Below, piece by piece: positions 5,870-62,473 of a stretch of DNA of 64,000 bases; within the stretch, counting starts at the first letter, position 1; each line of letters starts with the position of its first letter. The notes below the pieces were generated by a model, which saw nothing but the letters and a program-made list of their open reading frames with translations, was not told the origin of the DNA and did not search any database. The DNA is taken from the NCBI RefSeq assembly GCF_016446285.1, contig NZ_CP054140.1, positions 2,337,501 through 2,401,500 on the forward strand. The letters run 5' to 3'. The translations under genes and the position numbers were made by a program. The stretch is from Desulfobulbus oligotrophicus. GTDB taxonomy: Bacteria; Desulfobacterota; Desulfobulbia; Desulfobulbales; Desulfobulbaceae.

Positions 5870-6274
5870 TCAATGGGTTAACAACCTGGCTTCCTGCTCG
5901 AGCCATCTCATTGCTTTACAGTACATCTTAGCGGTATCAAGCCGAACATCTGCATAGTGATACGTTTGTGCTGTCGGCTTCTCATCTGAGTAAAAGCAGA
6001 ATTCATGATCATCATGAATCCTGACAGTCAGCATTCTGTTTTTTAAAAGTAATCCCTCTTCGAAAACTGAGACTAAGGTGTCGGTGTTAAGACCCGAGAC
6101 ATCATCATCGATAGTTGCGCCTCGCAGGTCAATAATCAACTCCTGACAACTGGGCATGGAAAGCATGGCCTGCGCAATCATCAGCAGATCCCAGCTGGAG
6201 TCATCGTTGACTTCGCCGGACACAACGATTGAATACGCTCTCTCTTCCTGGTGTTTATTAATTCTAAAACGCAT
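5870..6274 (-). CDS. STAS-like small cytoplasmic protein
   Basis: The protein has 134 residues if started at the second Met (MRFRINKHQ). The GGAGGG that would encode residues 2-4 of a longer version is better read as the ribosome site for the ATG at 6274. The layout (SIVVSGEVNDDSSWDLL, then ELIIDLRGATIDDD, then helices) resembles STAS or SpoIIAA-like domains, which bind partners in signalling. The canonical phosphorylated Ser is not clear, so anti-sigma antagonist activity is not supported. It stands alone and is divergent from the RlpA-like gene. Confidence 0.55.
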   Translation of the reverse strand: MRFRINKHQEERAYSIVVSGEVNDDSSWDLLMIAQAMLSMPSCQELIIDLRGATIDDDVSGLNTDTLVSVFEEGLLLKNRMLTVRIHDDHEFCFYSDEKPTAQTYHYADVRLDTAKMYCKAMRWLEQEARLLTH

Positions 6275-6649
6275 AGATCCCTCCATTGGATGTATGATTA
6301 ATCCTTTAATCGCATGCCTTTATTACACAGGGTTCTGATTGAATATCTTATTCAAAACCAAGGTTTACACAACAGAGCAGATTGAATGTGCAATTGGCTT
6401 AACAAGCTGTTGCAGGTCATTTGCTCTGTATTGTCTTTTTTCAACCTTCGCACAAGTTGACGGGGTATTCCCCTGCTCGTGGTACCATATCTCAGCTACC
6501 TGCTTTATCGGCTGATAATGAATATCAACTTAGTGTTTTTTGTTGAGAATGATTTTCCCGGTAAAACGTTTTTTTGTTCTTAACAAACCCGCTCAATTGA
6601 CCGAAAAGAGAGAAAAACAGAGACCAGCTCATACCAAAACATCTTCAGG
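6275..6649. other. intergenic region between divergent genes
   Basis: This 375-bp stretch must hold the promoters of the leftward STAS-like gene and the rightward LysM/RlpA gene. A short GGGG-TATT-CCCC hairpin lies at 6462-6473, just after a TTGACG that could be a -35 element. I compared it with c-di-GMP and c-di-AMP riboswitch consensus elements, which often precede such cell-wall genes, and found no convincing match. No ORF is supported. Confidence 0.4.
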
Positions 6650-7399
6650 ATGACAAAAATGCAACTGGGAGTACAGAAAGTATCAGAAGCGCTTAACGTA
6701 AACAGACAGCCGAATTTACATCAGCATGCTGCTGTTCGTGTTCCGAGTTCCAGTAAAACAGTCGCCCCATCCTCTGTAAAAACCTCAATACAGCTGCAAT
6801 CACCGGTTATCACTGGCAGCAGTTTCCAGGCTTTTCTGACAGAACAGGTCACCCGTCAGGTTGCAGCTGAGGCAGGCCCTCGATCTTCACCGAGCTCTCA
6901 AGATACCCTTGATGCAACAACAGTGCCGGAAAATCAGAAAGAGATAGTTCATATTGTGCAACCTGGAGAGACTGTCTGGAAACTTGCAAAAAAACGATAC
7001 CACGTCGATCCTGCCGTTATCTTGCAATACAATGCGCTTACATCCCCGGAAAAGTTACAGGTCGGAACGAAAATTCGCATTCCCGTTGAACAGAGTCAAA
7101 TAACCGACTCCAAAGGACAAGAGGTCGTGGCAAGCTGGTACGGAAGCTGTCATCATGGGCGATTAATGGCCAATGGTCACCCCTTTAACATGCACAATGC
7201 CACTGTTGCCCATCGTACCCTGCCGATGGGAACTCAAGTTGAACTGGAAAACCCGAAAACCGGTGAAAGAGCACAGGCTGTTGTTACGGACCGCGGCCCG
7301 TATCATAGGGGGCGGGACATTGATCTCAGCTATGGCCTTGCTAAACAACTCTCTTTAATCAGGCGAGGTGTTGGTAATCTGCAAATGCGGGTACTGTAA
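6650..7399 (+). CDS. LysM and RlpA-like (double-psi beta-barrel) domain protein
   Basis: Of 249 residues, the first ~95 are Ser/Thr/Gln-rich linker. A LysM peptidoglycan-binding domain spans about 100-147 (HIVQPGETVWKLAKK to IRIPV). An RlpA-like domain follows at about 155-249, with VASWYGSCHHGRLMANG, TVAHRTLPMGT and VVTDRGPYHRGRDIDLS. RlpA proteins cleave denuded glycan strands or bind them at the envelope. Unlike usual RlpA there is no signal peptide or lipobox and no SPOR domain. Export could use another route, or the real start could be elsewhere; no better start is visible. Confidence 0.8.
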   Translation: MTKMQLGVQKVSEALNVNRQPNLHQHAAVRVPSSSKTVAPSSVKTSIQLQSPVITGSSFQAFLTEQVTRQVAAEAGPRSSPSSQDTLDATTVPENQKEIVHIVQPGETVWKLAKKRYHVDPAVILQYNALTSPEKLQVGTKIRIPVEQSQITDSKGQEVVASWYGSCHHGRLMANGHPFNMHNATVAHRTLPMGTQVELENPKTGERAQAVVTDRGPYHRGRDIDLSYGLAKQLSLIRRGVGNLQMRVL

Positions 7400-7649
7400 C
7401 TTTTCTTATCGACCTGCCTGTTGACAGTAACTCAAATTGTTCCCTCCCCTCAGACAGGAGCACCTGTGTTTTTGCCCGCTGGTAAGATGCTGATTTCACT
7501 CTGTTCTTTAAAATCAATCTCTTCTCTTTATTGATCAAATCTATGCTGAGACTGCTGTTTGCGGTGAATTTTTTATCATCCGCCGGCGTCTTCATACCCC
7601 GATGGGTATCTCCACATCTCCACTGATTGTACTTTCTCTCCAGAAGGTT

Positions 7650-8546
7650 TTAAGTACCAGAGGTTACCTGTGCCGGTGACAGCGCGTACCAGGTTAATCC
7701 GATCGAACAACCGGCAATACCGATCATCTCTAAGGGAGAAAGGGTCTCACCCAGCATAATCCAGGCCAGCAAAGCTGTGACCACCGGCACAAAAGACATG
7801 AACAGGGAAACGGTCACCGTTCCGATATGCTCAATCGCATAAGCAACACAAAACAGAGCCAGCACATTGACAACAACACCTTGATAAAGAGCCTGGACTG
7901 CCATATCGTGGTAGGTGGACTCGACAAATCCGGAACGAAACACGAACCACAGTGGAGTGAAAAGTATCACATTGACGACCGGTACAATCACAATAACGTC
8001 CCGCCATGTCATCTTATAAAAACGAATGGCAACCATATGGCAGGTGTAACAGACAGCTGCCGCCAACAAAAGCAGCAGCCCCCCTGCCTGATGCAAACTC
8101 AGGGCAGTGCCATTGGTCATACAGATATTACTCAGAAATATTACACCAATGGCTGCATAGCGTGGTGCAGTTATCCGTTGCCTGAACAGCAGCCAGACAG
8201 CAAACGTGCCGAGTACAGGTAACAGGCCGTTGACTAATACACCGGCATGAGCAGCCTGCAGATGACGCAATGCGTAGAAAGAGAGCATTGTGTACGGAAA
8301 ACCAACACCAAGACCAACAACAAGGTACTGCCAGAGTCGGGATTTTTGCCAGGAGTATCGAAGGATAAAGGGAATCGTCACCAGCAGGGCGGTCCAGTAA
8401 CGCAGCAAAGTGATGTCAGCAGGTTGTAAAGCGGTATGGACTCCGAAACGCGAGATGGTAATCCACCCGGACCAGATAAATACCACAGCCATTGCTGCGC
8501 AGTACGGTTTATACATGTTCATCAATTCCATGACCAGGAGCAGCAC
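7650..8546 (-). CDS. EamA/DMT-family permease
   Basis: The protein has 298 residues with ten hydrophobic segments and the two-repeat EamA layout. The last segments (LFMSFVPVVTALLAWIMLGETLSPLEMIGIAGCSIGLTWYAL) carry the typical GE...P signature. These inner-membrane proteins export metabolites or amino-acid-like compounds; the substrate cannot be read from the sequence. Several in-frame Met codons lie near the start (8546, 8531, 8522, 8516) and none has a clear ribosome site, so the exact N-terminus is uncertain. It is divergent from selO. Confidence 0.82.
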   Translation of the reverse strand: MLLLVMELMNMYKPYCAAMAVVFIWSGWITISRFGVHTALQPADITLLRYWTALLVTIPFILRYSWQKSRLWQYLVVGLGVGFPYTMLSFYALRHLQAAHAGVLVNGLLPVLGTFAVWLLFRQRITAPRYAAIGVIFLSNICMTNGTALSLHQAGGLLLLLAAAVCYTCHMVAIRFYKMTWRDVIVIVPVVNVILFTPLWFVFRSGFVESTYHDMAVQALYQGVVVNVLALFCVAYAIEHIGTVTVSLFMSFVPVVTALLAWIMLGETLSPLEMIGIAGCSIGLTWYALSPAQVTSGT

Positions 8547-8626
8547 TTCTTGTCAGATCTTCATAACCGGCAGTCTTCTACCGCCAGCCGACACTAACAG
8601 ATAACTCTGCTTACATAAAACGTATT

Positions 8627-10237
8627 ATGCATACTTCACCTTGTTCTTCACAGTCCCTGACCAACCTCCGTTTTACCAACCGCTTCACCACTCAACTGCC
8701 GGCTGATCCGAGCAGTGAAAATACACGGCGTCAAGTGTATCGGGCCTGCTACTCACGTGTTATGCCGGTAACCACGACAAACCCGCAGCTGGTGGCCTAT
8801 TCCCGGGAGGTTGCCGATCTGTTGGGGCTTGACCAGGAAGACTGTACCTCCGAATTGTTTACCCGGGTCTTTTCAGGCAACCAACTGTTACCCGGTATGG
8901 ATGCCCATGCCATGTGCTATGGTGGACATCAGTTCGGCAACTGGGCCGGTCAGCTGGGAGATGGGCGAGCCATCAACCTGGGCGAGATCATAAACTGTCA
9001 GGGCGAACATTGGACCTTACAGCTGAAAGGTGCCGGGCCGACACCGTACTCCCGTCATGCCGACGGCCTGGCGGTGCTGCGTTCATCACTTCGTGAATTT
9101 CTCTGCAGCGAAGCAATGTTTCATTTAGGCGTCCCCACCACCAGGGCGCTGAGTCTTATTCTCACCGGCGATACCGTGGAACGCGACATGTTCTACAATG
9201 GTCATCCTCAAGAAGAACCGGGAGCTGTCGTCTGCAGGCTGTCGCCGTCATTTATCCGTTTCGGTAACTTCGAGCTTTTTACGGCACGGGGTGAAATCGA
9301 TTTGCTTAAGCAGCTTGCAGATTTTACCATACGCACTCACTTTCCCCATCTGGGCCGCCCGAAACCGGCAGTGTACAGTCTCTGGTTCGATGAGATCTGC
9401 CGTCTCACCGCTGAACTCATGGTGCATTGGCTGCGAGTCGGCTTTGTCCACGGTGTCATGAACACGGACAACATGTCAATTCTGGGGTTAACCATTGATT
9501 ATGGTCCATACGGATGGCTTGAAGACTATGATCCGACCTGGACACCCAACATCACGGATGCTCAGGGACGACGTTACTGTTACGGTCGACAACCCATTAT
9601 TGCCCATTGGAATCTTGCCCAGCTGGCCAATGCGCTGTATCCCCTTGTTGGTGAGACCGAACCTTTTGAGCAGTCTCTGCAAAAATTCAACCGGTACTTT
9701 GAGCAGAGCTGGCAGAGCATGATGGCTGGTAAACTCGGTTTAACTGTATTTGAGCCGGATACTGACCGTCCACTTGTTGAAGATCTCCTGCACCTGCTTG
9801 CTGCAGTTGAAACCGATATGACTCTTTTTTTTCGACAACTCGCCCTTGTGCCGACAGCAATGGAGAAACAGACTGCTGATCGATGTGCGCCACTGCATAT
9901 TGCCTTGTATCAGCCCGAGCAGCTGGACTCTGCCTATCAGGACAAACTCTCCGCCTGGCTGCTTCGTTACTGCAACCGGGTCCGACGTGATGGGTTGCCT
10001 GATCAGGAGCGGCAGAAAAAAATGAATGCAATCAACCCTCTCTACGTTTTACGAAACTACTTGGCCCAACTGGCTATAGAACAGGCGACTGATGGAGAGT
10101 ATACGCTGGTGAACGAGCTGCTGGAGGTTCTTCGCTCTCCGTATACTGAACAGCCCGGTAAAGAGCAGTTTGCCGAAAAACGGCCGGAATGGGCACGTCA
10201 CCGGCCAGGGTGTTCGATGTTGTCCTGCAGTTCATAA
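8627..10237 (+). CDS. selO: protein adenylyltransferase SelO (YdiU family)
   Basis: This 536-residue protein has the SelO/YdiU pseudokinase hallmarks: GGHQFGNWAGQLGDGRA, LQLKGAGPTPYSRHADG (nucleotide-binding Lys), GVMNTDNMSILG (metal-binding Asp/Asn) and DYGPYGWLE. SelO transfers AMP from ATP to Ser/Thr/Tyr of other proteins in redox stress responses. The C-terminus ends in SCSS, so the conserved redox Cys that is selenocysteine in some homologues is an ordinary Cys codon here. Length is normal, allowing a slightly long N-terminus. It stands alone, divergent from the EamA permease. Confidence 0.93.
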   Translation: MHTSPCSSQSLTNLRFTNRFTTQLPADPSSENTRRQVYRACYSRVMPVTTTNPQLVAYSREVADLLGLDQEDCTSELFTRVFSGNQLLPGMDAHAMCYGGHQFGNWAGQLGDGRAINLGEIINCQGEHWTLQLKGAGPTPYSRHADGLAVLRSSLREFLCSEAMFHLGVPTTRALSLILTGDTVERDMFYNGHPQEEPGAVVCRLSPSFIRFGNFELFTARGEIDLLKQLADFTIRTHFPHLGRPKPAVYSLWFDEICRLTAELMVHWLRVGFVHGVMNTDNMSILGLTIDYGPYGWLEDYDPTWTPNITDAQGRRYCYGRQPIIAHWNLAQLANALYPLVGETEPFEQSLQKFNRYFEQSWQSMMAGKLGLTVFEPDTDRPLVEDLLHLLAAVETDMTLFFRQLALVPTAMEKQTADRCAPLHIALYQPEQLDSAYQDKLSAWLLRYCNRVRRDGLPDQERQKKMNAINPLYVLRNYLAQLAIEQATDGEYTLVNELLEVLRSPYTEQPGKEQFAEKRPEWARHRPGCSMLSCSS

Positions 10238-10455
10238 CCCTTTTGCCTGGTGAGCCTCTCAATGATCTGATGCCCATCTGTGAATCATCTGTTCTCAGAG
10301 TTGCTCATTAATAGGGAAGATACAGTATTTTTTGGGAAGACAGGCTATGGTACTGGGGAATGACAGATATTCTGAAAAGAACATTTTTCAGGCGGTTGGA
10401 ATGTCTGCTCCCGGAACAGATAAAAATCGCCTTACAACTGTGTGAGATATCGACA

Positions 10456-11109
10456 ATGCATGCGACAATGCCGCCCTGGCAGGCTGTATTTTTTGACTTT
10501 GATGGTGTGATTGCCGACTCAACCGATGTGAAAGCACGTGCTTTTGCAACCCTTTTTGCACCTTATGGTGCCGATGTACAGGAAGCTGTTGTTCGGTACC
10601 ATCTTGACAACGGTGGCATGCCCCGCCACGAAAAGATCCGTCACTGTTTTATCACCTATGCGGGGAAACAGGTTACCGAAACTGAACTTGCACAGGCTGG
10701 GGCGACTTTCTCGAGCCTTGTGCTTGAAGAGGTGGTGCTGGCTCCTTTGATTCCAGGGGCACTGATGAGCTTGCAGCAGTTACAGCAGATGAACATCCCT
10801 GCCTTTGTTGTGTCGGGAACACCCCATGATGAGATGCAGCTGATTGTTCAGCGGAAAGGATTGGGTTATTTTTTTCAAGAAGTTCACGGATCGCCCTCAA
10901 GCAAGGCAGCCATCATCACGGATATCCTTACACGCTACAGCTTCACGCCGGACAGGTGTTTATTCATTGGCGACGCCCTTGCCGATTACCAGGCAGCTGA
11001 GTCCACCGGTCTCTGCTTCCAGGGCATTGTGCCCCACGGTGCCTCCTCTTCCATTTTTCCGGAAAACGTACGCACCTCTGCTGTTGTGACCCTTTCTTTG
11101 TACAGGTAA
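10456..11109 (+). CDS. HAD-family phosphatase, beta-phosphoglucomutase-like
   Basis: HAD motif I is FFDFDGVIADST, motif II is VVSGTPHDE and motif IV is FIGDALADYQAA, with the helical cap domain between I and II. Enzymes of this subgroup are cytoplasmic sugar-phosphate phosphatases or mutases; the substrate is not predictable here. The open frame reaches back to 10360, which would add 32 residues with no HAD similarity, so I place the start at the ATG at 10456. It ends 229 bp before thiM. Confidence 0.8.
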   Translation: MHATMPPWQAVFFDFDGVIADSTDVKARAFATLFAPYGADVQEAVVRYHLDNGGMPRHEKIRHCFITYAGKQVTETELAQAGATFSSLVLEEVVLAPLIPGALMSLQQLQQMNIPAFVVSGTPHDEMQLIVQRKGLGYFFQEVHGSPSSKAAIITDILTRYSFTPDRCLFIGDALADYQAAESTGLCFQGIVPHGASSSIFPENVRTSAVVTLSLYR

Positions 11110-11338
11110 ACCATTACCCCTTGTATCAGGTCGGCAAGTTTTGCTGAGGTAAGGTTCAACTTGACACAAGTAGCTTCTTTTTCTATAGAAAAATGTCTTT
11201 TATACACAACTGCAACTGCGCAATATTTTTCGACTCAACCTCTACATCGTCATAAACAAGCTGTTCTGAAGAAAAATTGCGGGTTTGCTGGTCACCTACA
11301 TTCCTTACCCCTCCAAACTATTTTACTAGAGTCAGCTC

Positions 11339-12145
11339 ATGACTGTGCTTACTGAGAAAATCGCCGATAATGTAAAAAAAGTACGGGAAAACAAACCCCT
11401 CATCCACAATATCACCAACTTTGTGGTGATGAATATCACTGCGAATGTACTTCTGGCCTGTGGCGCTTCACCAGTAATGGCCCATGCCAGTAACGAAGTT
11501 GAAGAGATGGTTGGGCTTGCCGACAGCCTCATCCTTAATATCGGAACACTGACCGATGACTGGGTCATTACCATGATCAACGCTGGTCGCTGTGCCTCTG
11601 ACCTGAGAAAACCGATCGTCCTTGATCCGGTCGGTGTGGGTACAACCAGCCTCCGGACCAATGCCGCCCGTGCCATTCTCTTTCAGACCTGGATCAGTGT
11701 GGTCCGCGGCAATGCGACGGAAATTTTAGCACTGGCTGACAAGGACTGTGGAAGTAAACGACTGGAGGCCATCCACTCCGTCACCGATGCAGCGGATGAG
11801 GCTGTCCGCCTGGCCAGGGAGCTTGGTACCACCCTGGCCATTACCGGGTCGACCGATCTGGTCACAGATGGCAGACGTACGCTGACCATTGAAGGCGGTC
11901 ACCCGCTTATGCCGTATGTCACAGGTACCGGCTGTTCAGCCTCTGCTCTGATCGGTGCATTTTTAGCAGTTGACAGCGACCCGGTCTATGCTGCTGCAAC
12001 CGCTCTGGCCTTTTTTGGAGTGGCCGGTGAAACTGCAGGGGTTCTGGCCGGCGGTCCGGGGACCTTCATGCCTCTTCTGCTGGATGCTCTTTACACGTTA
12101 ACACCTGATGAAGTGGCAGCACGCGCCCGAATCAGTACGCTATAA
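11339..12145 (+). CDS. thiM: hydroxyethylthiazole kinase ThiM
   Basis: 268 residues match ThiM end to end: PLIHNITNFVVMNITANVLLACGASPVM at the N-terminus, VLDPVGVGTT, RGNATEI and the active-site loop VTGTGCSASALIGAF. The enzyme phosphorylates 4-methyl-5-hydroxyethylthiazole for thiamine salvage in the cytoplasm. It is the first gene of a compact operon with thiE 8 bp downstream. The ATG at 11339 has only a weak ribosome site. I looked upstream for a TPP riboswitch and did not find the paired TGAGA and CCTGATC elements in the right order. Confidence 0.95.
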   Translation: MTVLTEKIADNVKKVRENKPLIHNITNFVVMNITANVLLACGASPVMAHASNEVEEMVGLADSLILNIGTLTDDWVITMINAGRCASDLRKPIVLDPVGVGTTSLRTNAARAILFQTWISVVRGNATEILALADKDCGSKRLEAIHSVTDAADEAVRLARELGTTLAITGSTDLVTDGRRTLTIEGGHPLMPYVTGTGCSASALIGAFLAVDSDPVYAAATALAFFGVAGETAGVLAGGPGTFMPLLLDALYTLTPDEVAARARISTL

Positions 12146-12153
12146 ATGAACGT

Positions 12154-12810
12154 ATGGTCGATTTTTCACTCTACCTGGTCACGGATCGCACCCTTTCTTT
12201 GGGCAGATCAACCATCGATATAGTGCGGGCAGCTGTAGCTGGTGGGGTTACCTGTGTCCAGCTGAGAGAAAAAAAGTGCGCAACTCGATTTTTTATTGAA
12301 GAGGCCCGACTCATCAAAGAGCTGCTCACAAAGATAAACCCTGCTGTTCCGTTGATTATCAATGATCGTCTTGATGTGGCCTTAGCGGTCGGGGCCGACG
12401 GGGTTCATCTTGGTCAGACCGACATGGCAGCTGTTGATGCCCGACGTCTTATCGGCTCTTCCTGTATCATGGGTATTTCAGTAGAATCGGTTGCCGACGC
12501 CATCCGCGCTGAAAATGAGGGGGCTGACTACATTGGTATCAGCCCGGTTTTTGCGACGACCACTAAAGATGACACGGTCGAGCCGCTTGGTCTGCAGGGT
12601 ATCCAGGCCATTCGCGCCGCTGTTTCCTTGCCGCTGGTCGCTATCGGAGGTATAACGGCTGACAACACTGCAGAGGTTATTCGGGCGGGAGCCGACGGTA
12701 TTGCCGTCGTATCAGCCATTGTCGGCTCACCTTCTCCGGAAGATGCAGCCAGAGCATTAAAAACGCAAATTATTGCATCGCGACAACACAACAGAGCATC
12801 AACAGCATGA
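12154..12810 (+). CDS. thiE: thiamine-phosphate synthase ThiE
   Basis: 218 residues with the ThiE TIM-barrel motifs: CVQLREKKC, INDRLDVALAVGADGVHLGQTD, GISPVFATTTK, VAIGGIT and VVSAI. It joins HMP pyrophosphate and thiazole phosphate to make thiamine phosphate. It lies between thiM and thiD and its stop overlaps the thiD start (ATGA), so the two are probably translationally coupled. Confidence 0.95.
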   Translation: MVDFSLYLVTDRTLSLGRSTIDIVRAAVAGGVTCVQLREKKCATRFFIEEARLIKELLTKINPAVPLIINDRLDVALAVGADGVHLGQTDMAAVDARRLIGSSCIMGISVESVADAIRAENEGADYIGISPVFATTTKDDTVEPLGLQGIQAIRAAVSLPLVAIGGITADNTAEVIRAGADGIAVVSAIVGSPSPEDAARALKTQIIASRQHNRASTA

Positions 12811-13613
12811 AAACATATCACAGGGTTTTGACCATTGCCGGTTCAGACAGCGGAGGTGGTGCCGGTATTCAGGCCGATCTGAAAACCTTTGCCGCCAATG
12901 GGTGTTACGGAATGAGCGTTATCACGGCTCTTACAGCACAAAACACCATGGGAGTAACCGCCATTCATGCGGTGCCCCTTGACTGTGTTGCCGCACAGAT
13001 TGAAGCCGTACTTTCCGACATCGGTGCAGATGCCGTTAAGATTGGAATGCTTTTCTCGCCGGATCTGATCCGTACCGTTGCCCAGGGCCTGAAAAAATTC
13101 AACCCGCCCGCCATAGTTCTCGACCCGGTGATGGTGGCGCAAAGTGGTGATACTCTGTTACAGAGTGAGGCTGTTGACGCCCTGAAGAAAGAGCTGATCC
13201 CCCTTGTCGACCTGATTACCCCGAACATACCGGAAGCAGCTGTCCTGCTCGATCGCGATCTCCCCAACAATGCGGCCATAGCGCAGGCAGCTGTTGAACT
13301 GGCCACCTTGGGCAGGGGTGATGTACTGATCAAAGGCGGCCATCTGGAAAACGGTGATAGCGATGACTGTCTCTACCTCGGCAGAGAACAGCGGACCGTC
13401 ATTTTTCCGGGTAAACGGATAATCACCCGCAACAACCATGGTACCGGCTGTACCCTCTCCTCGGCTATTGCCGCGTTCCTGGCCAAAGGAAAAGACATGG
13501 AGGAGGCTGTTCGCCGGGCAAAAATCTACATCACTGAGGCTATTCGGGCCGGTGCCGGCTATACAATCGGGCGGGGACACGGGCCGGTCCATCATTTTTT
13601 TGACTATTTTTAA
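12807..13613 (+). CDS. thiD: hydroxymethylpyrimidine (phosphate) kinase ThiD
   Basis: 268 residues, full-length ribokinase-fold ThiD: IAGSDSGGGAGIQADLKTF near the start, DPVMVAQSG, LITPNIPEA, IKGGH, and NNHGTGCTLSSAIAA with the catalytic Asp region replaced by the usual GTGC loop. It phosphorylates HMP and HMP-phosphate. With thiM and thiE it completes a thiazole and pyrimidine salvage unit; no de novo genes (thiC, thiG, thiS) are in the window. Confidence 0.94.
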   Translation: MKTYHRVLTIAGSDSGGGAGIQADLKTFAANGCYGMSVITALTAQNTMGVTAIHAVPLDCVAAQIEAVLSDIGADAVKIGMLFSPDLIRTVAQGLKKFNPPAIVLDPVMVAQSGDTLLQSEAVDALKKELIPLVDLITPNIPEAAVLLDRDLPNNAAIAQAAVELATLGRGDVLIKGGHLENGDSDDCLYLGREQRTVIFPGKRIITRNNHGTGCTLSSAIAAFLAKGKDMEEAVRRAKIYITEAIRAGAGYTIGRGHGPVHHFFDYF

Positions 13614-42941: not shown

Positions 42942-42959
42942 GAATACTATGTGTGTAAA

Positions 42960-43003
42960 TGGTCGGGAAGAGAGGATTCGAACCTCCGACCCCAGCGTCC
43001 CGA
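42960..43003 (-). repeat. prophage left attachment site: 3' part of tRNA-Pro
   Basis: On the minus strand this is a tRNA 3' part running from the anticodon loop (CTTCGGGAC, anticodon CGG) through variable loop, T-arm (GTCGGAGGTTCGAATCC), acceptor strand and CCA. The 5' half is missing; upstream sequence does not complete the anticodon stem and belongs to the prophage. It is the expected short duplicate left when a phage integrates into a tRNA 3' end. The complete tRNA-Pro should be at the far right prophage end. Confidence 0.8.
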
Positions 43004-43024
43004 AGACTGGGGTTTTAACGTTTA

Positions 43025-44101
43025 TCATCCCGTTTTATCGTCGTCTTGGCTGGTGTCTATTGGTAAACGCTTACCAAGAACGGCGATGGCGGCGCGGCGT
43101 TGGGCGGTGATAGTGTGCTGGTAGATGCGCATGGTCATGTCGGGCGAGGCATGGCCGAGGATCTCGGACACTGATTTGAGATCGGCGCCGCCGGCAAGCA
43201 TGTCGCTGGCTGCCATGTGGCGAAGATCGTAGAGGCGCATGCGGCGGGTGATCCCTGCCCGCCTCTTGGCCTGGGCCCAGGCTGTTTTGAGGCTGCCGAT
43301 CCGGGCGCCGTGATAATGGACCACCCATTGCAACGGTCCTCGCTCCCGGTCGGCCTGGATCCACCTTGCCATGGCTGTGTCGAGTTCCGTGGCGATTGGT
43401 ACCCCTCTCGCCCGCATCCCTCCTTTTTTTGCACTCTCCACGAAGATAGAACCGTTGACCCGGTCCACATGTTCCCAGCGCAGAGCCAGCAGCTCAGAGC
43501 CTCCCGGCCGCATCCCGGTATAATAGCTCAGGAGCAGGGCGCGCTGCAGGTGCGGTGCAGCGGCTCGATACAGGGCCTGCAGCTCGGCTGCCGTCGGTGG
43601 GCTGATGATGGCGTCATCGCGGCGCGGCAGGTCGAACCCGTCCATCGGATTGTGGGTGATTTTGTGCCGCTTGACGGCCCAGCGGATGATGGCCCTGATG
43701 ATTGACAGCTCCCGGTGGATCGACGTGTTTTTTCGTCCCAGGGCGGCCCGACCGGCCACATAGCCATCAAGCGCCGGTGGCCCGATCCGGCTGCCCGGCA
43801 GATGGCCGAGCTGGGGCAAGATGACGCCGTCCAGTTTCCAGGCGGCATCCTCCCTGCTGGTGGGTCGCATGTCGCCGGCGTGGGCCTCCATGTAATCGGC
43901 CGCCAGGTCGGCGAAGGTGGGTTCTGCCGCGCTGTGATCCCGCTGCACGCCCAGGCCGATGGCATGGTTGCGCGCATGGGCGGCCAGTTCCGCCTCAATC
44001 CCCCGGCCGAAATATTCCCTGGTGCGGTTGGGTTCCTCTTTGTTGAATCCCTTATGGTAAAAAACGAACCATCGGCCATCTTTGGTCTGGTGGACGCTCA
44101 T
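43025..44101 (-). CDS. tyrosine integrase of the prophage
   Basis: 358 residues. N-terminal arm/core-binding part (to ~165) then the catalytic domain with R198 (YYTGMRPGGSEL), Lys near 225, R294 (YDLRHMAAS), H317 (LGHAS) and the nucleophile Y327 (RIYQHT). The first box has a two-residue insertion before SE, and the usual His of HxxR is Tyr291. The stop is about 20 bp from the tRNA-Pro fragment, the normal place for a site-specific phage integrase. Confidence 0.93.
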   Translation of the reverse strand: MSVHQTKDGRWFVFYHKGFNKEEPNRTREYFGRGIEAELAAHARNHAIGLGVQRDHSAAEPTFADLAADYMEAHAGDMRPTSREDAAWKLDGVILPQLGHLPGSRIGPPALDGYVAGRAALGRKNTSIHRELSIIRAIIRWAVKRHKITHNPMDGFDLPRRDDAIISPPTAAELQALYRAAAPHLQRALLLSYYTGMRPGGSELLALRWEHVDRVNGSIFVESAKKGGMRARGVPIATELDTAMARWIQADRERGPLQWVVHYHGARIGSLKTAWAQAKRRAGITRRMRLYDLRHMAASDMLAGGADLKSVSEILGHASPDMTMRIYQHTITAQRRAAIAVLGKRLPIDTSQDDDKTG

Positions 44102-44104: not shown

Positions 44105-44407
44105 TCAGCGGTCACTGGCTCCGCGTTTCTTTTTGGGCGGGTTGACCTCTGCCGCGTTAATTGTTGTTGGTTTTTTTGCTTCTGGAACCTTAATAAGTCC
44201 CAACTTCTGTACACCGACAAGTGCGCCAGGAACAAGTGCGTTTGGATCTGGGCCTATGGGGCCGAATCCAACTGTAAACTCCATTGTCAAATCATAAAAT
44301 CCTTCGTGAAGGCCATAATGTTTTATAAGCAGTATTGTTACCTCGCGAAGCGACAATGGGTTTTCAACAAACTCATGAGTTTTTGCTTGATCAGTTTGCT
44401 GTTGCAT
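44105..44407 (-). CDS. small hypothetical protein behind HicB
   Basis: 100 residues from the ATG at 44407, which has AGGGA 7 bp upstream. It overlaps the end of hicB by 17 bp and so is probably co-translated. The sequence has a helical start and a Gly/Pro-rich middle (FGPIGPDPNALVPGALVGV), then a Lys-rich tail. I do not recognise it. It could be a third member of the toxin-antitoxin operon or an unrelated cargo protein. Confidence 0.5.
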   Translation of the reverse strand: MQQQTDQAKTHEFVENPLSLREVTILLIKHYGLHEGFYDLTMEFTVGFGPIGPDPNALVPGALVGVQKLGLIKVPEAKKPTTINAAEVNPPKKKRGASDR

Positions 44408-44852
44408 GAGCTGTTCCCTCGAAAAACTGAGTGCCGGTATATGGGCTAGATAACCATGTATTGAAATTATTATCTGACTGCGCGACACTAACATAGTGGT
44501 AATTGTAATTCACCTCTGCCCCAGAGTGAACAAATGCCGATATCGCTTTCCCCACCAACTCATTCAATGTAATGCCGTCGTGTATTGCTCTAAGACTGGC
44601 ATCCTTGTGCAATTCTGGAGAGATCCTTACATTGAATTGTCCCTTGAGTGGTTTTTTGGGTTCCCTCCCCAGTTCAGCGCACGTCTCTATGTAATCATCA
44701 ACTGCTTCCTCGAAGGCTTTTTTAAGTGCAGCCGGACTCTCCGCTTCGTAAATAACAAGATCGTTAATAAAAAGAATCTTGCCCCGACAAACACAACGAT
44801 CCATGTCCACCTCGGCTGTTCCTTCATATCTTTTATACTTGAGAGTGCCCAT
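44391..44852 (-). CDS. hicB: HicB-family antitoxin
   Basis: 153 residues, GGAGGGG before the ATG. N-terminal HicB fold (KYKRYEGTAEVDMDRCVCRGKILFINDLVIYEAESPAALKKAFEEAVDDYIETC). A ribbon-helix-helix/HicB C-terminal region follows (KGQFNVRISPELHKDASLRAIHDGITLNELVGKAI). It should neutralise HicA and repress the operon. It lies 11 bp after hicA. Confidence 0.87.
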   Translation of the reverse strand: MGTLKYKRYEGTAEVDMDRCVCRGKILFINDLVIYEAESPAALKKAFEEAVDDYIETCAELGREPKKPLKGQFNVRISPELHKDASLRAIHDGITLNELVGKAISAFVHSGAEVNYNYHYVSVAQSDNNFNTWLSSPYTGTQFFEGTAHATAN

Positions 44853-44863
44853 GGTGCCCCTCC

Positions 44864-45124
44864 TTAAATAAATTCATTTTCCCTCAGGTGTTCAGACACG
44901 TCAGCGATGCACCCCTTATCAACGCACGGGCTCGGATGTGGCTGGTGACAGATAAACAATATATCTTTTTGTTTATGATAAAATTTCCTGCTTGACCCCC
45001 CTCCTTTTGGTTTGAGCATAACATAACCAAAATGTTCGAGAAGTGATTTAAGCTCTGTCCATTTTATACCAGGAGGAGCTTTTTTTGACCGAAGCAGGTC
45101 TATTATTTTTTGATGTTTGGACAT
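44864..45124 (-). CDS. hicA: HicA-family mRNA interferase toxin
   Basis: 86 residues. The layout KIIDLLRSKKAPPGIKWTELKSLLEHFGY, then GGGSSRKFYHK and CHQPHPSP, matches the larger HicA type with a dsRBD-like fold. HicA cleaves mRNA when free of HicB. The toxin-first order is normal. The pair probably stabilises the prophage. Confidence 0.83.
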   Translation of the reverse strand: MSKHQKIIDLLRSKKAPPGIKWTELKSLLEHFGYVMLKPKGGGSSRKFYHKQKDILFICHQPHPSPCVDKGCIADVSEHLRENEFI

Positions 45125-56017: not shown

Positions 56018-56854
56018 ATGACCGCCGAACCCGAAGTCTTCAAGAGCCGCAAGGAGGCCCATACCAGGCTGAGCATGGACGAAGAGAGATTCAAAAAACT
56101 GCTTGATCGTGCGGTCGGCCGGGACAAATCAGAGCTGATACTGGTGCGTGATGTGCACGTCACGGCCATGGAGGCCTACGGAAAAGCGCCAACCCGGCAG
56201 ACCAAGGATAACTGGGACGCGGCCCGGTCAGCCCTCGAAGAGACCGTGGAGAGGCTGCTTGCCAAATACCTGCCCGATGAGCAGCCGCCGCCCGAAGGTG
56301 AGCGCTTCGCCAACCGCAAACAGGCTCTCAACTGGCTGAGGGCCCAGGGGTACAAGGTCAGCCAGGGCAAATTCTATCAGGATTGCGAGGCCGGGTTTCC
56401 GGCTCTCCATCGGGACGGCACGGTCAGCCGGTACCAGGTGATGCAGTATGGTCAGCAGGTCGATGTCTCGACGCGGTCCGAGACCCGGTTCGACCAATCG
56501 GCCCGGCGCGAGGATCTGGAGATCCGCAAGCTGGAGGCCGAGGTCAGGGAAAAGGAGTCCAAGGCCCGCCGCGAGGATAGCCGCTGGCTGCTCAAGGAGG
56601 ATGCCTGGGCCGCGGTCGCCGCCCTACTCTCCACCCTGCAGGACGGTATTTACCACCATTTGCACGAAGGCCAGGGGCTGCTGGTGCACCTGGCCGGCGG
56701 CACCCCGGACCGCGAGCCCGAGGTCTGTGAGGCGATGATGGAGCTGGTCGGCAAGGCTTTTAACGAGTTGGCCGGGGAGCGCCTCGAGGGGACCTTTGTC
56801 GAGGACATTGCGGACGAATCAACAATCGGAGAGGATGGTGACGATGTTGAATGA
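56018..56854 (+). CDS. terminase small subunit-like protein (Nu1 type)
   Basis: 278 residues from the ATG at 56018. An N-terminal helical domain is followed by a winged-helix-like part (FANRKQALNWLRAQGYKVSQGKFYQDCEAGFPALHRDGTVSRYQVM). A charged coiled coil (DLEIRKLEAEVREKESKARRED) and a helical end follow. This is the Nu1-like layout expected before a GpA-type large terminase. It should recognise the phage packaging site. Pattern-based call. Confidence 0.62.
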   Translation: MTAEPEVFKSRKEAHTRLSMDEERFKKLLDRAVGRDKSELILVRDVHVTAMEAYGKAPTRQTKDNWDAARSALEETVERLLAKYLPDEQPPPEGERFANRKQALNWLRAQGYKVSQGKFYQDCEAGFPALHRDGTVSRYQVMQYGQQVDVSTRSETRFDQSARREDLEIRKLEAEVREKESKARREDSRWLLKEDAWAAVAALLSTLQDGIYHHLHEGQGLLVHLAGGTPDREPEVCEAMMELVGKAFNELAGERLEGTFVEDIADESTIGEDGDDVE

Positions 56855-57038
56855 CGATATCCTGGTGGGGATGAAGGAAATCTGCTGTTTTTTGCGGGTG
56901 AGCCGCCGGGTAGTCAACCGGTGGATGAAAGAATATCCCGACATGCCTATCGTCAAGGACGGGCAAAGGATGGCGGTTGCCGGCGACCTGGCGGAATGGC
57001 AACGCCGGCACATCAAGCGAAGAACCGTAAGCCGGTAG
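56835..57038 (+). CDS. small HTH protein, Nu1/excisionase type
   Basis: 67 residues from the ATG at 56835, overlapping the small terminase end. MKEICCFLRVSRRVVNRWMKEYPDMPIVKDGQRMAVAGDLAEWQRRH is a winged HTH of the MerR/Nu1/excisionase class. It could be a second packaging DNA binder or a regulator. Confidence 0.62.
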   Translation: MVTMLNDDILVGMKEICCFLRVSRRVVNRWMKEYPDMPIVKDGQRMAVAGDLAEWQRRHIKRRTVSR

Positions 57039-57105
57039 CAGAACCAGTGAAGGCGACCAATACATGGAGAGGGTGATGGGGTGCCGCGCGACGTCACCTG
57101 CGACT

Positions 57106-57834
57106 TCAGCTTTGACCCGCTTTCTCCGCCAGGGCCGCCTCGATCTCGCGCTGAATATCAGCCACAGTGGACAATGGGTCGAGCGATGTGCTGATCGGTC
57201 GGCCGATAACCACATAATCCGCCCCGTTGCGAATAGCTTCTTTGGCAGTGGCTACCCGTTTCTGGTCATCGTCCTTAATTTCATCGATATTTGCACCAGG
57301 TCGGATTCCAGGAGTAACAATGACGAAGTTTTGCCGAATGTTGGAACGTAATTTTCCAGCTTCTTTGGCCGAGGACACTACCCCGTCGCAGCCGAGATCG
57401 ATTGCTTTTTTAGAACGCATCAGCACCAGATCTTCAACAGTCCCGGTGAACCCCATATCCATCATGTCGGATTCGTCAAAACTGGTCAACACGGTAACCG
57501 CTAATATCTTCAGGCCGTTTTTATGCTTCACTGCCGCCTTGATGATAGGGTCGTTGCCATGAATGGTGGCAAAGGTCACTTTCTTATTTTTAAGCTGCTG
57601 TACAGCCAGGTTGACGGTTTCCGGGATGTCGAAAAACTTAAGATCAACCATCACTTTGTTGCCCCGCCCGACGATGTGATCGATCACCGGCCACCATCCT
57701 GCGAGAAACAACTGTAAACCAACTTTGAAAAACTTAATTTTTCCGTCCAGCTTTTCTACCCATTCCTTGGCCTTTTCTGGTTCGGAAAAGTCGAGGGCGA
57801 AAATAATACGTTCGTTCAGCGGGATATCGTTCAT
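57106..57834 (-). CDS. pyrF: orotidine-5'-phosphate decarboxylase
   Basis: 242 residues, complete. The catalytic DxKxxD is VMVDLKFFDIPETV; N-terminal ALDFSEPEKA and VTPGIRP and VIGRPIS complete the OMP-binding site. It converts OMP to UMP, the last step of pyrimidine synthesis, in the cytoplasm. It is leftward in a rightward packaging block and looks host-like in base use, lower in GC than its neighbours. The ATG at 57834 has no clear ribosome site. It lies between the small and large terminase genes. Confidence 0.93.
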   Translation of the reverse strand: MNDIPLNERIIFALDFSEPEKAKEWVEKLDGKIKFFKVGLQLFLAGWWPVIDHIVGRGNKVMVDLKFFDIPETVNLAVQQLKNKKVTFATIHGNDPIIKAAVKHKNGLKILAVTVLTSFDESDMMDMGFTGTVEDLVLMRSKKAIDLGCDGVVSSAKEAGKLRSNIRQNFVIVTPGIRPGANIDEIKDDDQKRVATAKEAIRNGADYVVIGRPISTSLDPLSTVADIQREIEAALAEKAGQS

Positions 57835-58017
57835 AGTCTATAAAGCGTTTGCGGAAAAGAGTGTTGCGCCCAAATAGGCAGAGGATTATCGGTCTTTCTA
57901 GTCAAAAACCTTTTGAAAGTAAACAAAAAAGGCATGATAGCCTTGACAAGGACGCACCTCCACCTCTCCCTTTGATGGCGGTTTTTTTGCGTCCACAGCA
58001 CAGCATGGCCCTTGCCT

Positions 58018-58107
58018 GGGCGGTGGTATGCGAGGGGGTTCGTCCCCACAGGTTCCTGTATCCTGGTTGCTAACCCGCATATCACCGCCCTTTTTGTGTT
58101 TAGCAAC
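58018..58107 (+). ncRNA. candidate structured RNA with long stem and T-run
   Basis: GGGCGGTGGTATGCG (58019-58033) pairs with CGCATATCACCGCCC (58076-58090) over 15 bp with one G-T pair, followed directly by five T. Inside are a GGGGG/CCCC hairpin and CAGG/CCTG. A second inverted pair GTTGCTAA (58066-58073) and TTAGCAAC (58100-58107) overlaps, so two folds compete. This could be a terminator, attenuator or a regulatory RNA of P4/C4 type. Confidence 0.45.
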
Positions 58108-58145
58108 GCGGAGGGTGGTTTCTTCCACTTTACAGGAGAAACGCC

Positions 58146-58277
58146 ATGAGTAACCCCGCCGGCAGTCCCGGCGGGCGGGGAGGTGCGGTGACCCGGTCCG
58201 GAAGGGGCCGGAAAGCGCCCCTTAAAAAACCTGTCAAGGTACAATCGAGCACAATAACGCACAATCGAGCACAATAA
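58146..58277 (+). CDS. possible 43-residue basic peptide
   Basis: ATG at 58146 with AGGAG 6 bp upstream. The product starts MSNPAGSPGGRGG and is very basic; its end runs into the 10-bp repeats. No family recognised. Confidence 0.35.
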   Translation: MSNPAGSPGGRGGAVTRSGRGRKAPLKKPVKVQSSTITHNRAQ

Positions 58278-58310
58278 CGCACAATCGAGCACAATAACGC
58301 ACAATTCAGC
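58241..58310. repeat. seven 10-bp ACAAT repeats before large terminase
   Basis: Units ACAATCGAGC and ACAATAACGC alternate exactly every 10 bp at 58241 to 58291, then ACAATTCAGC at 58301. The ACAAT core thus lies on one face of the helix. It is 122 bp before the terminase start. A binding array for terminase or a regulator is a plausible reading. Confidence 0.8.
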
Positions 58311-58431: not shown

Positions 58432-60408
58432 ATGGTCTCTTTCAAGGGACATGGATCGAAACCGATGCCGGCAGCCGTCACTACCCCACAGCAAACCCGC
58501 CTGGTGCCCCGCACCATCCCTCTGCCGTCTTTCCTTCCAGCCCGCGTCCGCCGGATGCTTTCCGGACGTACGGTGGGCTCGGATCGCCAACCGGTAATCA
58601 CCCTGCCGGAACAGGTCCGCCGCGTTCTCCGCCAACCTGAAAAAATCTCCGTGGCCGATCACGCCCTCAAGTACCGCGTCGTCACCGATGGCGCCCATGA
58701 GGGCAGCTGGCGGCACGAGTACGCCCCCCACACCGTCAAAATCATGAACACCTTCGGTGAGTCCTGGGTCCGAGAGATTTGGTTTTGCGCCGTTGAGCAG
58801 AGCGGCAAAACAAACACCATGCTCAACTGCATGCAATGGGCTATCGACTGCGCGCCGGGTAATGTTTTTTATCTCATGCCCAGCGAGGATGCCTCGAAAA
58901 AGATCGTCGGCAAAAAAATCAAGCCGATGCTGGTCAAGTCGCCCAAGTTGAAAAAACTGGTCTCAACCCGGCAGGACGATACCACCATGACCTGCATCTC
59001 GCTGCGCAACGGCGTCGAAATCTTCCCGGCCCATGCCAACAGCGCCACTTCCATGGCCACCTGGTCGGCCAAATACTGCTTTGGCGATGAGGTCGACAAG
59101 TACCCGCTGCTGACGGGCAAGGAAACCGACCCGATCACCCTGATCAAAAAGCGCAACCGGATCTACCGGGGCCGCTACAAACGCTTTTTTGCCTCGACCG
59201 CCGCTGAAAAATTCATTTACACCGCCGGCGTGCTCAAATGCCACCAGATTTGGGAGTGGCGTCTCCGTTGTCCGGACTGCGGTCAGCTGGTCAAGATGGA
59301 TGCCGAGCATCTCGCTCTGGCCGAAGGGGCCACCCCGGAGTCGGTGGAGCTGAACGGCTGCGATTATGTCTGTAACGCCTGCGCCTCGGTCTGGGATGAG
59401 GGTAAGCGCCGGGCCGCGATCAAGGCCGGTTGCTGGGTGGCGGTCAAGGGAGCGGACGCGGTCCGTCCGTCTAAGGTCGGTTTTCATCACCGTTCCTGGG
59501 AGTGCCTCGATATCAGCCTGCGCGAAATCGCGGTTGCCTACCTCAAAAGCAAAACCGGCGCGCTGGCCGATAAGCTCGACTGGGCCCACGGCCATGAGGC
59601 CGTCGATTACGTCCACGAGCAGCAGGACCGCAAGGAAGACTACATCCTCCGTTTGGTGGATCCCGATCAGCCCCGCGGAGTGGTGCCGGCCGATACGGCC
59701 TGTGTGTTGCTGCTGGTCGATACCCAGCAGCGCGGCTTTTTTTACCAGGTTTGGGCCTGCGGTTGGGGTCCGGAGGTGAAGACGGCCATGATTGATTATG
59801 GTTATGTCGACCGCTGGCAGCACCTGATCGATCTCGGCCGGCGGGAATGGACCGATGCCGAGGGGAAACAGTTCAGGGTCCGGCGGGGCTACATCGACTC
59901 AGGCGGAGGCACCGATCCTCACAACCGCAAGCACAGCCGCACCTCGGCGGTGTATGAATTCTGCCGCCGCAATCGCCTGTTTCGGCCGATCAAGGGCAAC
60001 AGTCGCCAGGATGAGTTGTTCGTGCCCAAGAAAATCGATTTCTACCCGACCCGCACCGGTAAAAAGGTGCCCATGGTCAACGGCCCCATCCGCTACAACC
60101 TCCAGGTCAACCACTTCAAAGATGAGCTGGCCGACAAACTGATGATCGAACCGGGCAGCCCGGGTGGCATCACCCTGCACGCCGGTGTGGGCAACGATTA
60201 CGCTGCCCAGATGTGCGCCGAATATGCCGATGAGCGAGGCAACTGGCATTGCCCCAGGGGCAAGGCTAATCATCATTGGGATATCGGGGTCTATCTGCGC
60301 GGGGCGATCACCGTCGAGGGCCTGTACAATAAGCGCCGCCCTCGCCCGCAACGCGATGCGGCGGCTGTGGCCATCCCTAAAAAAAGTTTTGTCAGAGGTT
60401 GGAAATGA
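58432..60408 (+). CDS. phage terminase large subunit, GpA family
   Basis: 658 residues. ATPase: Walker A variant AVEQSGKTNT (120-129) and Walker B YCFGDEVDKYP with D219/E220. A zinc-binding pair CPDCG and CNAC follows, then the nuclease part with LLLVDTQQRGFFYQVWACG and later YIDSGGG. It cuts and packages phage DNA. The GpA type is used by lambda-like and other cos phages. A start at 58465 would also work. Confidence 0.9.
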   Translation: MVSFKGHGSKPMPAAVTTPQQTRLVPRTIPLPSFLPARVRRMLSGRTVGSDRQPVITLPEQVRRVLRQPEKISVADHALKYRVVTDGAHEGSWRHEYAPHTVKIMNTFGESWVREIWFCAVEQSGKTNTMLNCMQWAIDCAPGNVFYLMPSEDASKKIVGKKIKPMLVKSPKLKKLVSTRQDDTTMTCISLRNGVEIFPAHANSATSMATWSAKYCFGDEVDKYPLLTGKETDPITLIKKRNRIYRGRYKRFFASTAAEKFIYTAGVLKCHQIWEWRLRCPDCGQLVKMDAEHLALAEGATPESVELNGCDYVCNACASVWDEGKRRAAIKAGCWVAVKGADAVRPSKVGFHHRSWECLDISLREIAVAYLKSKTGALADKLDWAHGHEAVDYVHEQQDRKEDYILRLVDPDQPRGVVPADTACVLLLVDTQQRGFFYQVWACGWGPEVKTAMIDYGYVDRWQHLIDLGRREWTDAEGKQFRVRRGYIDSGGGTDPHNRKHSRTSAVYEFCRRNRLFRPIKGNSRQDELFVPKKIDFYPTRTGKKVPMVNGPIRYNLQVNHFKDELADKLMIEPGSPGGITLHAGVGNDYAAQMCAEYADERGNWHCPRGKANHHWDIGVYLRGAITVEGLYNKRRPRPQRDAAAVAIPKKSFVRGWK

Positions 60409-60941
60409 CCGCCCCGCTCACCGCTCTGCCCGCCAGCATCACCGCCGGCGACTCCATTGCCTGGACGCTGACCCGAGACGATTACCCGGCCGCCGCTGGG
60501 TGGACCCTGTCCTTTGTGTTTATCAATGGCGCGGCAAAGATCGCCATGGCCTCGACTGCCGTCGGCGACCGCCATGCGATTGCGATCGAAGCCGCCACCA
60601 CGGCACTCTATACCCCCGGCAAGTATACCTATGCCGGGTTCGCCGCCAACGGGACTGTGCGGCACACGATCGAGCGCGGCAGCATGGATGTCCTTCCCAA
60701 CCTGGCCGTGCAGTCCACCTATGACGGGCGCGCCTGGTACGACAAGGCCATTGAAGCGCTGGAGGCGGCTATTGCCAGGCGGGCCGACAAGACGCAGATG
60801 TCGCAGGTCCTGCCCAATGGTGTCCAGGTGCAGCACCTGCCGCTGCGGGATCAGATCGAGGCTTTGCGCCAGCTGAAGCAGATCCGGGCAGCGGCCGCCG
60901 GGAAGTGGAAAAAAACGATTACGCCGAGGTTTAAAAATTGA
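60405..60941 (+). CDS. head-region protein, unknown (Ig-like and gpW-like parts)
   Basis: 178 residues; the ATG overlaps the terminase stop. The N-terminal ~100 residues are beta-rich (TALPASITAGDSIAWTLTRDDYPAAAGWTLSFVFING). The C-terminal part is helical (YDKAIEALEAAIARRADKTQMS... LRDQIEALRQLKQIRAAAAG) like short gpW-type head-joining proteins. Its place between terminase and portal fits a head-completion role. Confidence 0.6.
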   Translation: MTAPLTALPASITAGDSIAWTLTRDDYPAAAGWTLSFVFINGAAKIAMASTAVGDRHAIAIEAATTALYTPGKYTYAGFAANGTVRHTIERGSMDVLPNLAVQSTYDGRAWYDKAIEALEAAIARRADKTQMSQVLPNGVQVQHLPLRDQIEALRQLKQIRAAAAGKWKKTITPRFKN

Positions 60942-62473
60942 GCAAGGCAATGGCACCGATTCTGTACGGCCCGAACGGCCGCCCTATCCCGCTGAGCAAA
61001 GCGCTGAGAAAAATGCGCGGCCAGGCAAAAGCGTTCATGTCCGGCTTCCACGGCGCCAACAGCAATAACCTGGCCGACTGGGTGACGTTGCCGATGGAAA
61101 TCAACGCCATTCTGCGCAACGATCTGCAAAAACTGCGGGCGCGGTCGCGGGACCTGGCGCGCAATGACGACACGGCCCGACGATTTCTGTTCATCCTCAA
61201 GCAAAATGTGCTCGGCAGCGCCGGCATCGTTCTTCAGGCCAAGAACAAGCTGGGGGCCGGAAAAAAGCAGGACGAAAAACGGAACGACGAAATAGAACGC
61301 GAATGGACCATGTTTCACAGCAAGCGCCGGGTGCGCGGCGTATCGGTGTCGCCCAGCGCGTGCGGGCAGCTGTCCGGGCGGGAATTGGGGTGGCTGAGCC
61401 TGCAGACGCGAGCCGTTGATGGCGAATGCTTTATGCAGATCCTACGCGGGTACCCCCACAATCCGCATAAATTCGCGGTCCGGTTTCTCAATCCTGATTT
61501 GCTCGACAGCTCCTATTGTGTCGAGCTGCCGAACGGCAACCGGGTGGAGATGGGGATAGAGTTTGACCAATTCGACCGGCCGGTAAACTACCATTTCAGT
61601 GAGCAGCACCCGACCCGCAAGTTCCAGGGCAAAGGCGCCAGGCGGATCCCTATCCCGGCGGACCAGATCATCCACCTGTTCCGCAAGGAATATGTGGGTC
61701 AGATTCGGGGTATCCCTGATTTCGCGGCGATCATGCACAAAACCAAGATGCTGCACGGGGTGCACGAGGCCATTGTTGTGGGCTGGCGGGTGGCTGCCGC
61801 TAAAATGGGTTTTTTTACGGTCAGGGATGTCGATGCCTTCAAGACCAGCCTGGACGATGAGGATCGCTCCCCATTCGATGCCGGCGAGATCGAAGCCACC
61901 CCCGGCAGCTTTGACGTGATTCCTGATGGCTACAAGCTCGATACCTTTGATCCGCAGTACCCGACCAGCACCTATGAGAGCGGCCACAAGGTTTTCATGC
62001 AGCAGTTGGCCAACGGGCTCAACGTTTCGAGCCCGACGCTTTCCAACAATTACGCCGACGTCAACTACTCCAGCCTCCGCCAGGCCCTGCTGGAGGATCG
62101 GGAAGGGTGGCGCTGCCTGCAGGCGGAAATGATCGACGGTTTTTATCAGCCGCTTTTTGATGAGTGGTACGATTGGACCGTGTACGGGACGGGCCGCATC
62201 AAAGCGCCTGCCGCGCGCCGGGCGCAGGATCCCGTTGTTGTCTGGCAGCCGCGCGGGTGGCCGTGGGTGGATCCGCTGAAAGAGGTCAACGCCCAGGTGA
62301 AAGCGATAGATGCACACCTGCGGACCCGGCAAAGCATTATCGCCGAGACCACCGGCGCTGATTTTATCGAGATGGTTGACGAATTGGCGGTGGAGCAGGA
62401 AACCTTGGTGGAGCGCGGTTTAAAAACCGCTATTCCGGATGATATGGCGGAAAATTACAGAGATAGAGGGTAA
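60938..62473 (+). CDS. phage portal protein, lambda GpB family
   Basis: 511 residues. TTG start at 60938 overlaps the previous stop, with GAGG upstream; an ATG at 60950 is possible. Family features include ARSRDLARNDDTARRFLFILKQNVLGSAGI, DGECFMQILRGY and VSSPTLSNNYADVNYSSLRQALLEDREGW. It forms the ring through which DNA enters the head. Confidence 0.9.
   Translation: MSKAMAPILYGPNGRPIPLSKALRKMRGQAKAFMSGFHGANSNNLADWVTLPMEINAILRNDLQKLRARSRDLARNDDTARRFLFILKQNVLGSAGIVLQAKNKLGAGKKQDEKRNDEIEREWTMFHSKRRVRGVSVSPSACGQLSGRELGWLSLQTRAVDGECFMQILRGYPHNPHKFAVRFLNPDLLDSSYCVELPNGNRVEMGIEFDQFDRPVNYHFSEQHPTRKFQGKGARRIPIPADQIIHLFRKEYVGQIRGIPDFAAIMHKTKMLHGVHEAIVVGWRVAAAKMGFFTVRDVDAFKTSLDDEDRSPFDAGEIEATPGSFDVIPDGYKLDTFDPQYPTSTYESGHKVFMQQLANGLNVSSPTLSNNYADVNYSSLRQALLEDREGWRCLQAEMIDGFYQPLFDEWYDWTVYGTGRIKAPAARRAQDPVVVWQPRGWPWVDPLKEVNAQVKAIDAHLRTRQSIIAETTGADFIEMVDELAVEQETLVERGLKTAIPDDMAENYRDRG

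Follow-up and report, generated by a model that had tools for sequence, protein, structure and literature searches.

The window analysed here, a stretch of 64,000 nucleotides from the single 3.10-Mb contig of Desulfobulbus oligotrophicus, holds a prophage that carries an orotidine-5'-phosphate (OMP) decarboxylase gene, pyrF, upstream of its large terminase gene, and the same host genome has a second, intact pyrF of a different class elsewhere. We consider it fairly probable that the prophage gene is a phage moron with a host-type promoter region, derived from a low-GC Desulfobulbus-type chromosome and now borne by a temperate phage. The lysogen looks like a two-gene transitional state midway through gene replacement, a reading suggested by the fact that the incoming class (class A) is the sole pyrF in five genomes of the genus, four of which lack the resident class (class B) at its usual locus.

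The prophage and its pyrF

The gene lies at 57106..57834 on the minus strand and encodes a class A protein of 242 amino acids. The initial annotation had described it as a full pyrF with an intact DxKxxD site, and this was borne out: the protein scores above the curated threshold of the NF001273 equivalog (orotidine-5'-phosphate decarboxylase; 227.7 bits against 193), matches PF00215 at 146.1 bits against a cut-off of 27, and finds 17 different sequences of solved structure at E 0.001, while K37, D64, K66 and D69 are unchanged across a 13-sequence alignment, with the spacing known from the catalytic residues of the E. coli enzyme. As far as sequence features can tell, its identity as a full-length, intact OMP decarboxylase gene is confirmed. 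Pairwise dN/dS values of 0.03-0.07 in three of five class A comparisons (the remaining two were saturated) speak for a functional gene, though they mostly reflect evolution before capture. No PHROG family matched the protein at E 0.001, in agreement with the earlier view that such genes are rare in phages, and its nearest named relatives are found in Desulfobulbus.

The prophage begins at 42956, runs to the end of the window (64000) and continues to 80307 in extended coordinates, i.e., about 37 kb enclosed by a perfect 49-bp repeat, of which the left copy (attL) is at 42956..43004 and the right copy (80259-80307, extended coordinates, outside the window) overlaps the 3' end of a tRNA-Pro(cgg) gene. 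A tyrosine integrase gene (43025..44101, minus strand; PF00589, phrog_1) adjoins attL. Also present are hicAB, replication genes of the primase type, one weak match to a regulator, and genes for terminase, portal, tape measure and endolysin, a set that looks complete. The HicB/HicA-type toxin-antitoxin pair is located near the integrase (44391-45124, minus strand; PF05534, PF07927). Since the host genome is a single contig, no contig join falls within the pyrF region; the suspicion of an assembly join between 57038 and 58432 was dropped for this reason and because the att repeats that flank the prophage are perfect.

Both terL, for a terminase large subunit of the gpA type (58432..60408; PF05876, PF20454, phrog_15), and the portal protein gene (60938..62473; PF05136, phrog_21) are on the plus strand, so that pyrF runs opposite to the packaging genes, as had been claimed. 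Its reported placement between the small and large terminase genes was borne out for the large subunit only: the left neighbour of pyrF (56796..57038, plus strand) encodes a small HTH/excisionase-like protein with weak PHROG matches (best E 3.5e-5). A candidate for the small terminase is a conserved ORF at 56018..56854 (plus strand), whose homologues precede terL in related loci; a position of pyrF between the two subunits is unproven, since neither this ORF (queried with an upstream start) nor two of its homologues matched any family model in Pfam or PHROG. Divergent from pyrF is a 74-aa ORF (57849-58073, plus strand) that ends in VRPHRFLYPGC, has no Pfam match and is reminiscent of P4 Ash-type proteins. 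Directly before terL, at 58245-58310, a short CGAGCACAATAACGCACAAT-like motif is repeated in tandem, and similar AATAACGGAT repeats occur at the same place in a related prophage locus, L030; packaging proteins may bind to such repeats.

An insertion in a variable slot upstream of terL

Locus L030 (genome G019) has the closest TerL among the genomes of the order that were searched, 79% identical to that of the window. In blastn comparisons, homology between the two stops at 57017 and restarts at 58212, leaving 1194 bp in the window (57018..58211) against 13 bp in L030; the pyrF region is an insertion relative to a near-empty site in a related prophage. A homologue of the upstream gene occurs together with terL in 26 of the 48 TerL-related loci, in reversed order in one of these (L048) and with a gap of more than 1 kb in six. 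In the larger gaps, ORFs code for a DNA methylase, a Rha regulator and proteins of the DHH and PAPS-reductase types, and there is a weak match to radical SAM. Such cargo upstream of terL was seen in L061 (5917-8586), L063, L069, L070 and L072, with DHH, N6/N4 DNA methylase, PAPS-reductase-type and Rha proteins. The site before terL is a variable slot in which pyrF was found solely in the window among the loci examined: none of the 48 TerL-related loci carries it, and neither do five portal relatives (L191-L195) that are without a close terminase match. Given these 48 loci, the carriage of pyrF may be a single event. The cargo gain proposed in the initial annotation finds its support in the near-empty site of L030, the second pyrF elsewhere in the genome and a sequence that falls outside the host-lineage class.

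The lack of pyrF in all 48 loci, the varied cargo that the slot holds in other phages and the redundant resident pyrF would also suit a gene captured by chance, without effect on phage or host and heading for loss. We regard such a neutral passenger as unlikely, because the reading frame, the class-invariant residues and a promoter-like element are all intact, and because pyrF is also present in an independent viral contig (L172).

The promoter-like element belongs to an upstream region (57835..57933, minus strand) that the window pyrF has in common with the chromosomal class A genes of D. alkaliphilus (G007), D. elongatus (G011) and G003, as blastn homology to the three ends at 57933, 57933 and 57932, respectively, i.e., 99 bp beyond the start codon. 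With G005, the metagenome-assembled genome (MAG) SZUA-77, G075 and G018, homology ends at or near the pyrF start codon. Within this region, TTTACT-17-TAGAAA (57923-57895, minus strand) is aligned in four sequences; its reading as a promoter rests on this conservation, as the element was absent from the list of a consensus promoter scan. A terminator-like stem stands just upstream of it (57929..57944, minus strand), in a region where the pattern scan found six terminator-like sites against 2.5 expected from shuffles, a weak excess. The minus-strand sites listed are this one upstream of pyrF (57944-57929) and one inside the left neighbour (56957-56937); none was found by the scan directly after pyrF (57105-57039, minus strand).

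The base composition likewise sets the gene apart from its surroundings. The lower, host-like GC reported at the outset was reproduced: it is 0.491 in pyrF and 0.48-0.50 in the host outside the prophage, against about 0.60 in the phage DNA that flanks the gene (GC3 of the window pyrF is 0.568), and the other class A genes range from 0.54 to 0.62. As the GC of pyrF is nearer that of the host than that of the phage or of the other class A genes, the gene was probably donated by a Desulfobulbus of low GC, perhaps by the host's own lineage. Phage morons are additional genes that bring along a promoter of their own and, in many cases, a terminator. Like them, the window pyrF is a single gene on the opposite strand, with a different GC, a promoter-like element and a near-empty site in a relative; unlike the usual morons, it codes for a core biosynthesis enzyme that has an intact resident counterpart.

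Two classes of pyrF in Desulfobulbus

A protein search for pyrF in 145 genomes gave matches in 123, two of which, the present host (G000) and G061, are listed with two matches; in G061 both copies are class B. The resident pyrF of the host, at C1:1056610, is intact, scores above the same NF001273 cut-off and is 51.7% identical to the window pyrF, which is therefore not the sole copy in the genome. (A third PF00215 match, at C1:1426498, was set aside as weak at 29.1 bits; the ORF is presumably a ribulose-phosphate 3-epimerase.) The window protein is far closer to those of other Desulfobulbus, with identities of 87% to D. elongatus, 86% to D. alkaliphilus, 83% to a Desulfobulbus MAG (G005), 81% to G003, 80% to SZUA-77 and 72% to G018, and the summary range against the sole chromosomal pyrF of five Desulfobulbus genomes is 72-88%.

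In a PyrF tree of 74 selected rows (four viral, two from named MAGs; G001 and other genomes were left out), the window PyrF is one of six members of a Desulfobulbus class A clade (98/100), next to D. elongatus (99/85), and the host PyrF has G015 as its sister (100/99) within class B (98/98). The tree thus places the window copy apart from the host-lineage PyrF, and supports its being a xenolog from outside the host-lineage class rather than a copy of the host gene. Support for joining it to D. elongatus drops to 87/88 in the 25-row subset of these 74 that was used for the clade (AU) test. That test did not reject a class A tree in which G011 groups with G005, as they do in the species tree (p-AU 0.198), and we no longer claim a conflict between the two trees. 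The same value leaves room for differential loss of two ancestral classes. Both would have been present in the ancestor of the genus, one would have disappeared from most lineages, and the phage would have taken up this lineage's own class A, with no between-species transfer required. We hold this to be possible but doubtful: the GC of the window pyrF, nearer the host than other class A genes, fits it, whereas the five class A loci have no common neighbours and no other genome of the genus was found to have both classes, several of these genomes being incomplete drafts.

Among the 23 genomes of the genus, ten have class B only, five class A only (G003, G005, G007, G011 and G018), the present host alone has both, and seven have neither; each of the 15 others with any pyrF has a single match. 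No PF00215 match above cut-off was found in the seven (G002, G008, G013, G017, G019, G020 and G021), four of which are less than 80% complete. In the 11 genomes of the genus with class B, the gene always adjoins a nitroreductase gene, and 8 of these stretches show PhoH as well. Outside the genus, PhoH stands beside class B in three of the ten class B stretches examined (G023, G039 and G047), so that this site is probably, though not with certainty, the ancestral place of the gene.

The usual locus is readable and devoid of pyrF in six genomes (G002, G005, G007, G011, G018 and G021), and four of these (G005, G007, G011 and G018) have class A; in G003 the locus is unreadable, which places it outside this count. 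Remnants of the start of class B were detected in G011 (score 93) and G002 (score 60), each score being reached by none of 200 shuffles that preserved base composition, not dinucleotides. Under the same shuffles, the score of G005 was reached by 13 of 200, and no remnant was found in G007, G018 or G021 (147, 193 and 134 of 200), the gap in G018 being taken as a fixed 150 bp. On an rpoB tree, the state of the resident locus changed at least five times among the 16 genomes scored. The gene had been sought in 30 genomes, of which G003, G006, G017, G020 and G022 gave no match and G034, with rpoB in pieces, was left out, so that the tree comprises 24. The state of G016, a class B genome inside the G011/G005 group, is less sure owing to its 75% completeness.

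Two genomes without a pyrF match were conspicuous in themselves. In G021 (L101), 99% complete, pyrE is above cut-off and the usual locus is empty, and G002 (L089), 91% complete, has its pyrF-B remnant and only a weak pyrE match.

Phages may have driven pyrF replacements in the genus. The link is circumstantial, as no recognised phage neighbours were seen at the other class A genes tested: ten neighbouring ORFs from G007, G011 and G005 gave six ordinary chromosomal families and four without any match, and the stretches compared around the class A genes of G003, G005, G007, G011 and G018 revealed no neighbour common to them.

The sequence of events that we envisage would start with the capture of a complete pyrF, together with its own upstream region, into the variable slot before terL, followed by integration of the temperate phage at tRNA-Pro. 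In the lysogen, pyrF would be expressed independently of the phage late genes and would yield an active OMP decarboxylase, duplicating the intact resident gene in this host. The prophage copy could then relax the need for the resident pyrF, and a lysogen in which the latter has decayed would depend on its prophage for uracil prototrophy, to the gain of the phage. A more far-reaching version, in which temperate phages shuttle a self-contained pyrF cassette among Desulfobulbus species and repeatedly replace the resident gene, with uracil prototrophy tethering the prophage, strikes us as speculative and rather improbable; if it were true, G021 and G002 would carry pyrF on elements missing from their assemblies. 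Simple complementation of the host, offered by the initial annotation, is less supported, as the resident PyrF passes the same equivalog cut-off.

Xenologous gene displacement offers a general concept for such a history. As expected from it, the distant version is the sole copy in some species, where the resident is missing, and remnants are left in G011 and G002; unlike in a finished displacement, both versions are together here, the incoming one on a prophage. Core-gene replacement is usually inferred afterwards, whereas here both states are at hand, with the two versions in one genome and finished replacements in related species, two genomes keeping remnants of the lost gene. A phage-driven replacement, or a metabolic tie between prophage and host, thus becomes open to direct test, and some species of the genus are in culture.

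By analogy, the most likely function of the window pyrF is that of an OMP decarboxylase for lysogenic conversion, comparable to the thymidylate synthase of phi3T. The nearest precedent is this thyP3 gene of a temperate Bacillus phage that converts its host (PMC8270828). In both cases, a complete pyrimidine-nucleotide housekeeping gene that can give prototrophy is carried by a temperate phage. The enzyme differs, conversion is experimental in phi3T and inferred here, and in the present case related species show remnants of the resident gene. Among the open-licence matches listed, no title or beginning of an abstract mentioned a pyrF prophage or a pyrF replacement in Desulfobulbus; "pyrF" and "orotidine" are absent from the main text of a prophage survey of sulfate reducers (PMC8146710), and the available part of PMC5992433 has nothing bearing on pyrF.

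pyrF in other phage, viral and plasmid sequences

Beyond the window, pyrF is rare but recurrent in phage-like contigs. In the 43-kb viral contig L172, a 65% PyrF relative is flanked by a SocA-like gene and an integrase; the contig's status as a phage rests on the collection label and the integrase, since the one large ORF beyond pyrF matches no Pfam family. In L173, a 64% relative is near the contig end, and the contig also has an ORF6N gene and a major-head-protein match. A 312-kb viral contig, L174, has a 40% relative with purD and PhoH genes close by (4758-13401), and the PyrF of a second contig, L175, is similar. The PyrF proteins of L172 and L174 gave no PHROG match at E 0.001.

Large phages of this kind bring up the lytic use of pyrF as an auxiliary metabolic gene (AMG), whereby PyrF made during infection would raise the UMP and pyrimidine supply for phage replication. 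The pyrimidine pathway is not known to be regulated at OMP decarboxylase, which counts against such a role. So do the retention of a chromosomal-type promoter region, the position on the strand opposite the packaging genes and the prophage proteins run against Pfam and PHROG (part of the ORFs), among which no further nucleotide-synthesis gene was recognised. In its favour are the presence of pyrF in L174 and L175, with purD nearby in the former, and the naming of pyrF among viral AMGs in one metagenome study (PMC13288924). On balance, we judge the lytic role decidedly unlikely; the supply of UMP for phage DNA, as suggested early on, is possible and not favoured, given the opposite strand and an upstream promoter-like element like that of the chromosomal copies. 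The present case has in common with that study the same gene in a viral sequence; there it stands in a metagenome annotation list (PMC13288924), here in an att-bounded prophage of a single-contig genome, with its history in the genus.

Searches of viral contigs required exact peptide patterns, by which relatives may be missed. With the window protein, none of 14 candidate stretches was confirmed, and the L172 protein retrieved only L172 itself; the class A alignment recovered four loci and the class B alignment two, one of them on the L173 contig. Ten annotated phage records contain pyrF, at 32.6-41.5% identity to the window PyrF, and the L172 protein likewise matched ten records, largely the same accessions. 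One of them, a Klebsiella phage record, was rejected as a case of phage-borne pyrF because the gene sits in host flank with the order lapB-pyrF-yciH, and the other nine are presumed to be host flank as well. A 406-kb contig, L190, has a 42% PyrF match, and plasmid records gave 42 PyrF matches, all below 60% identity.
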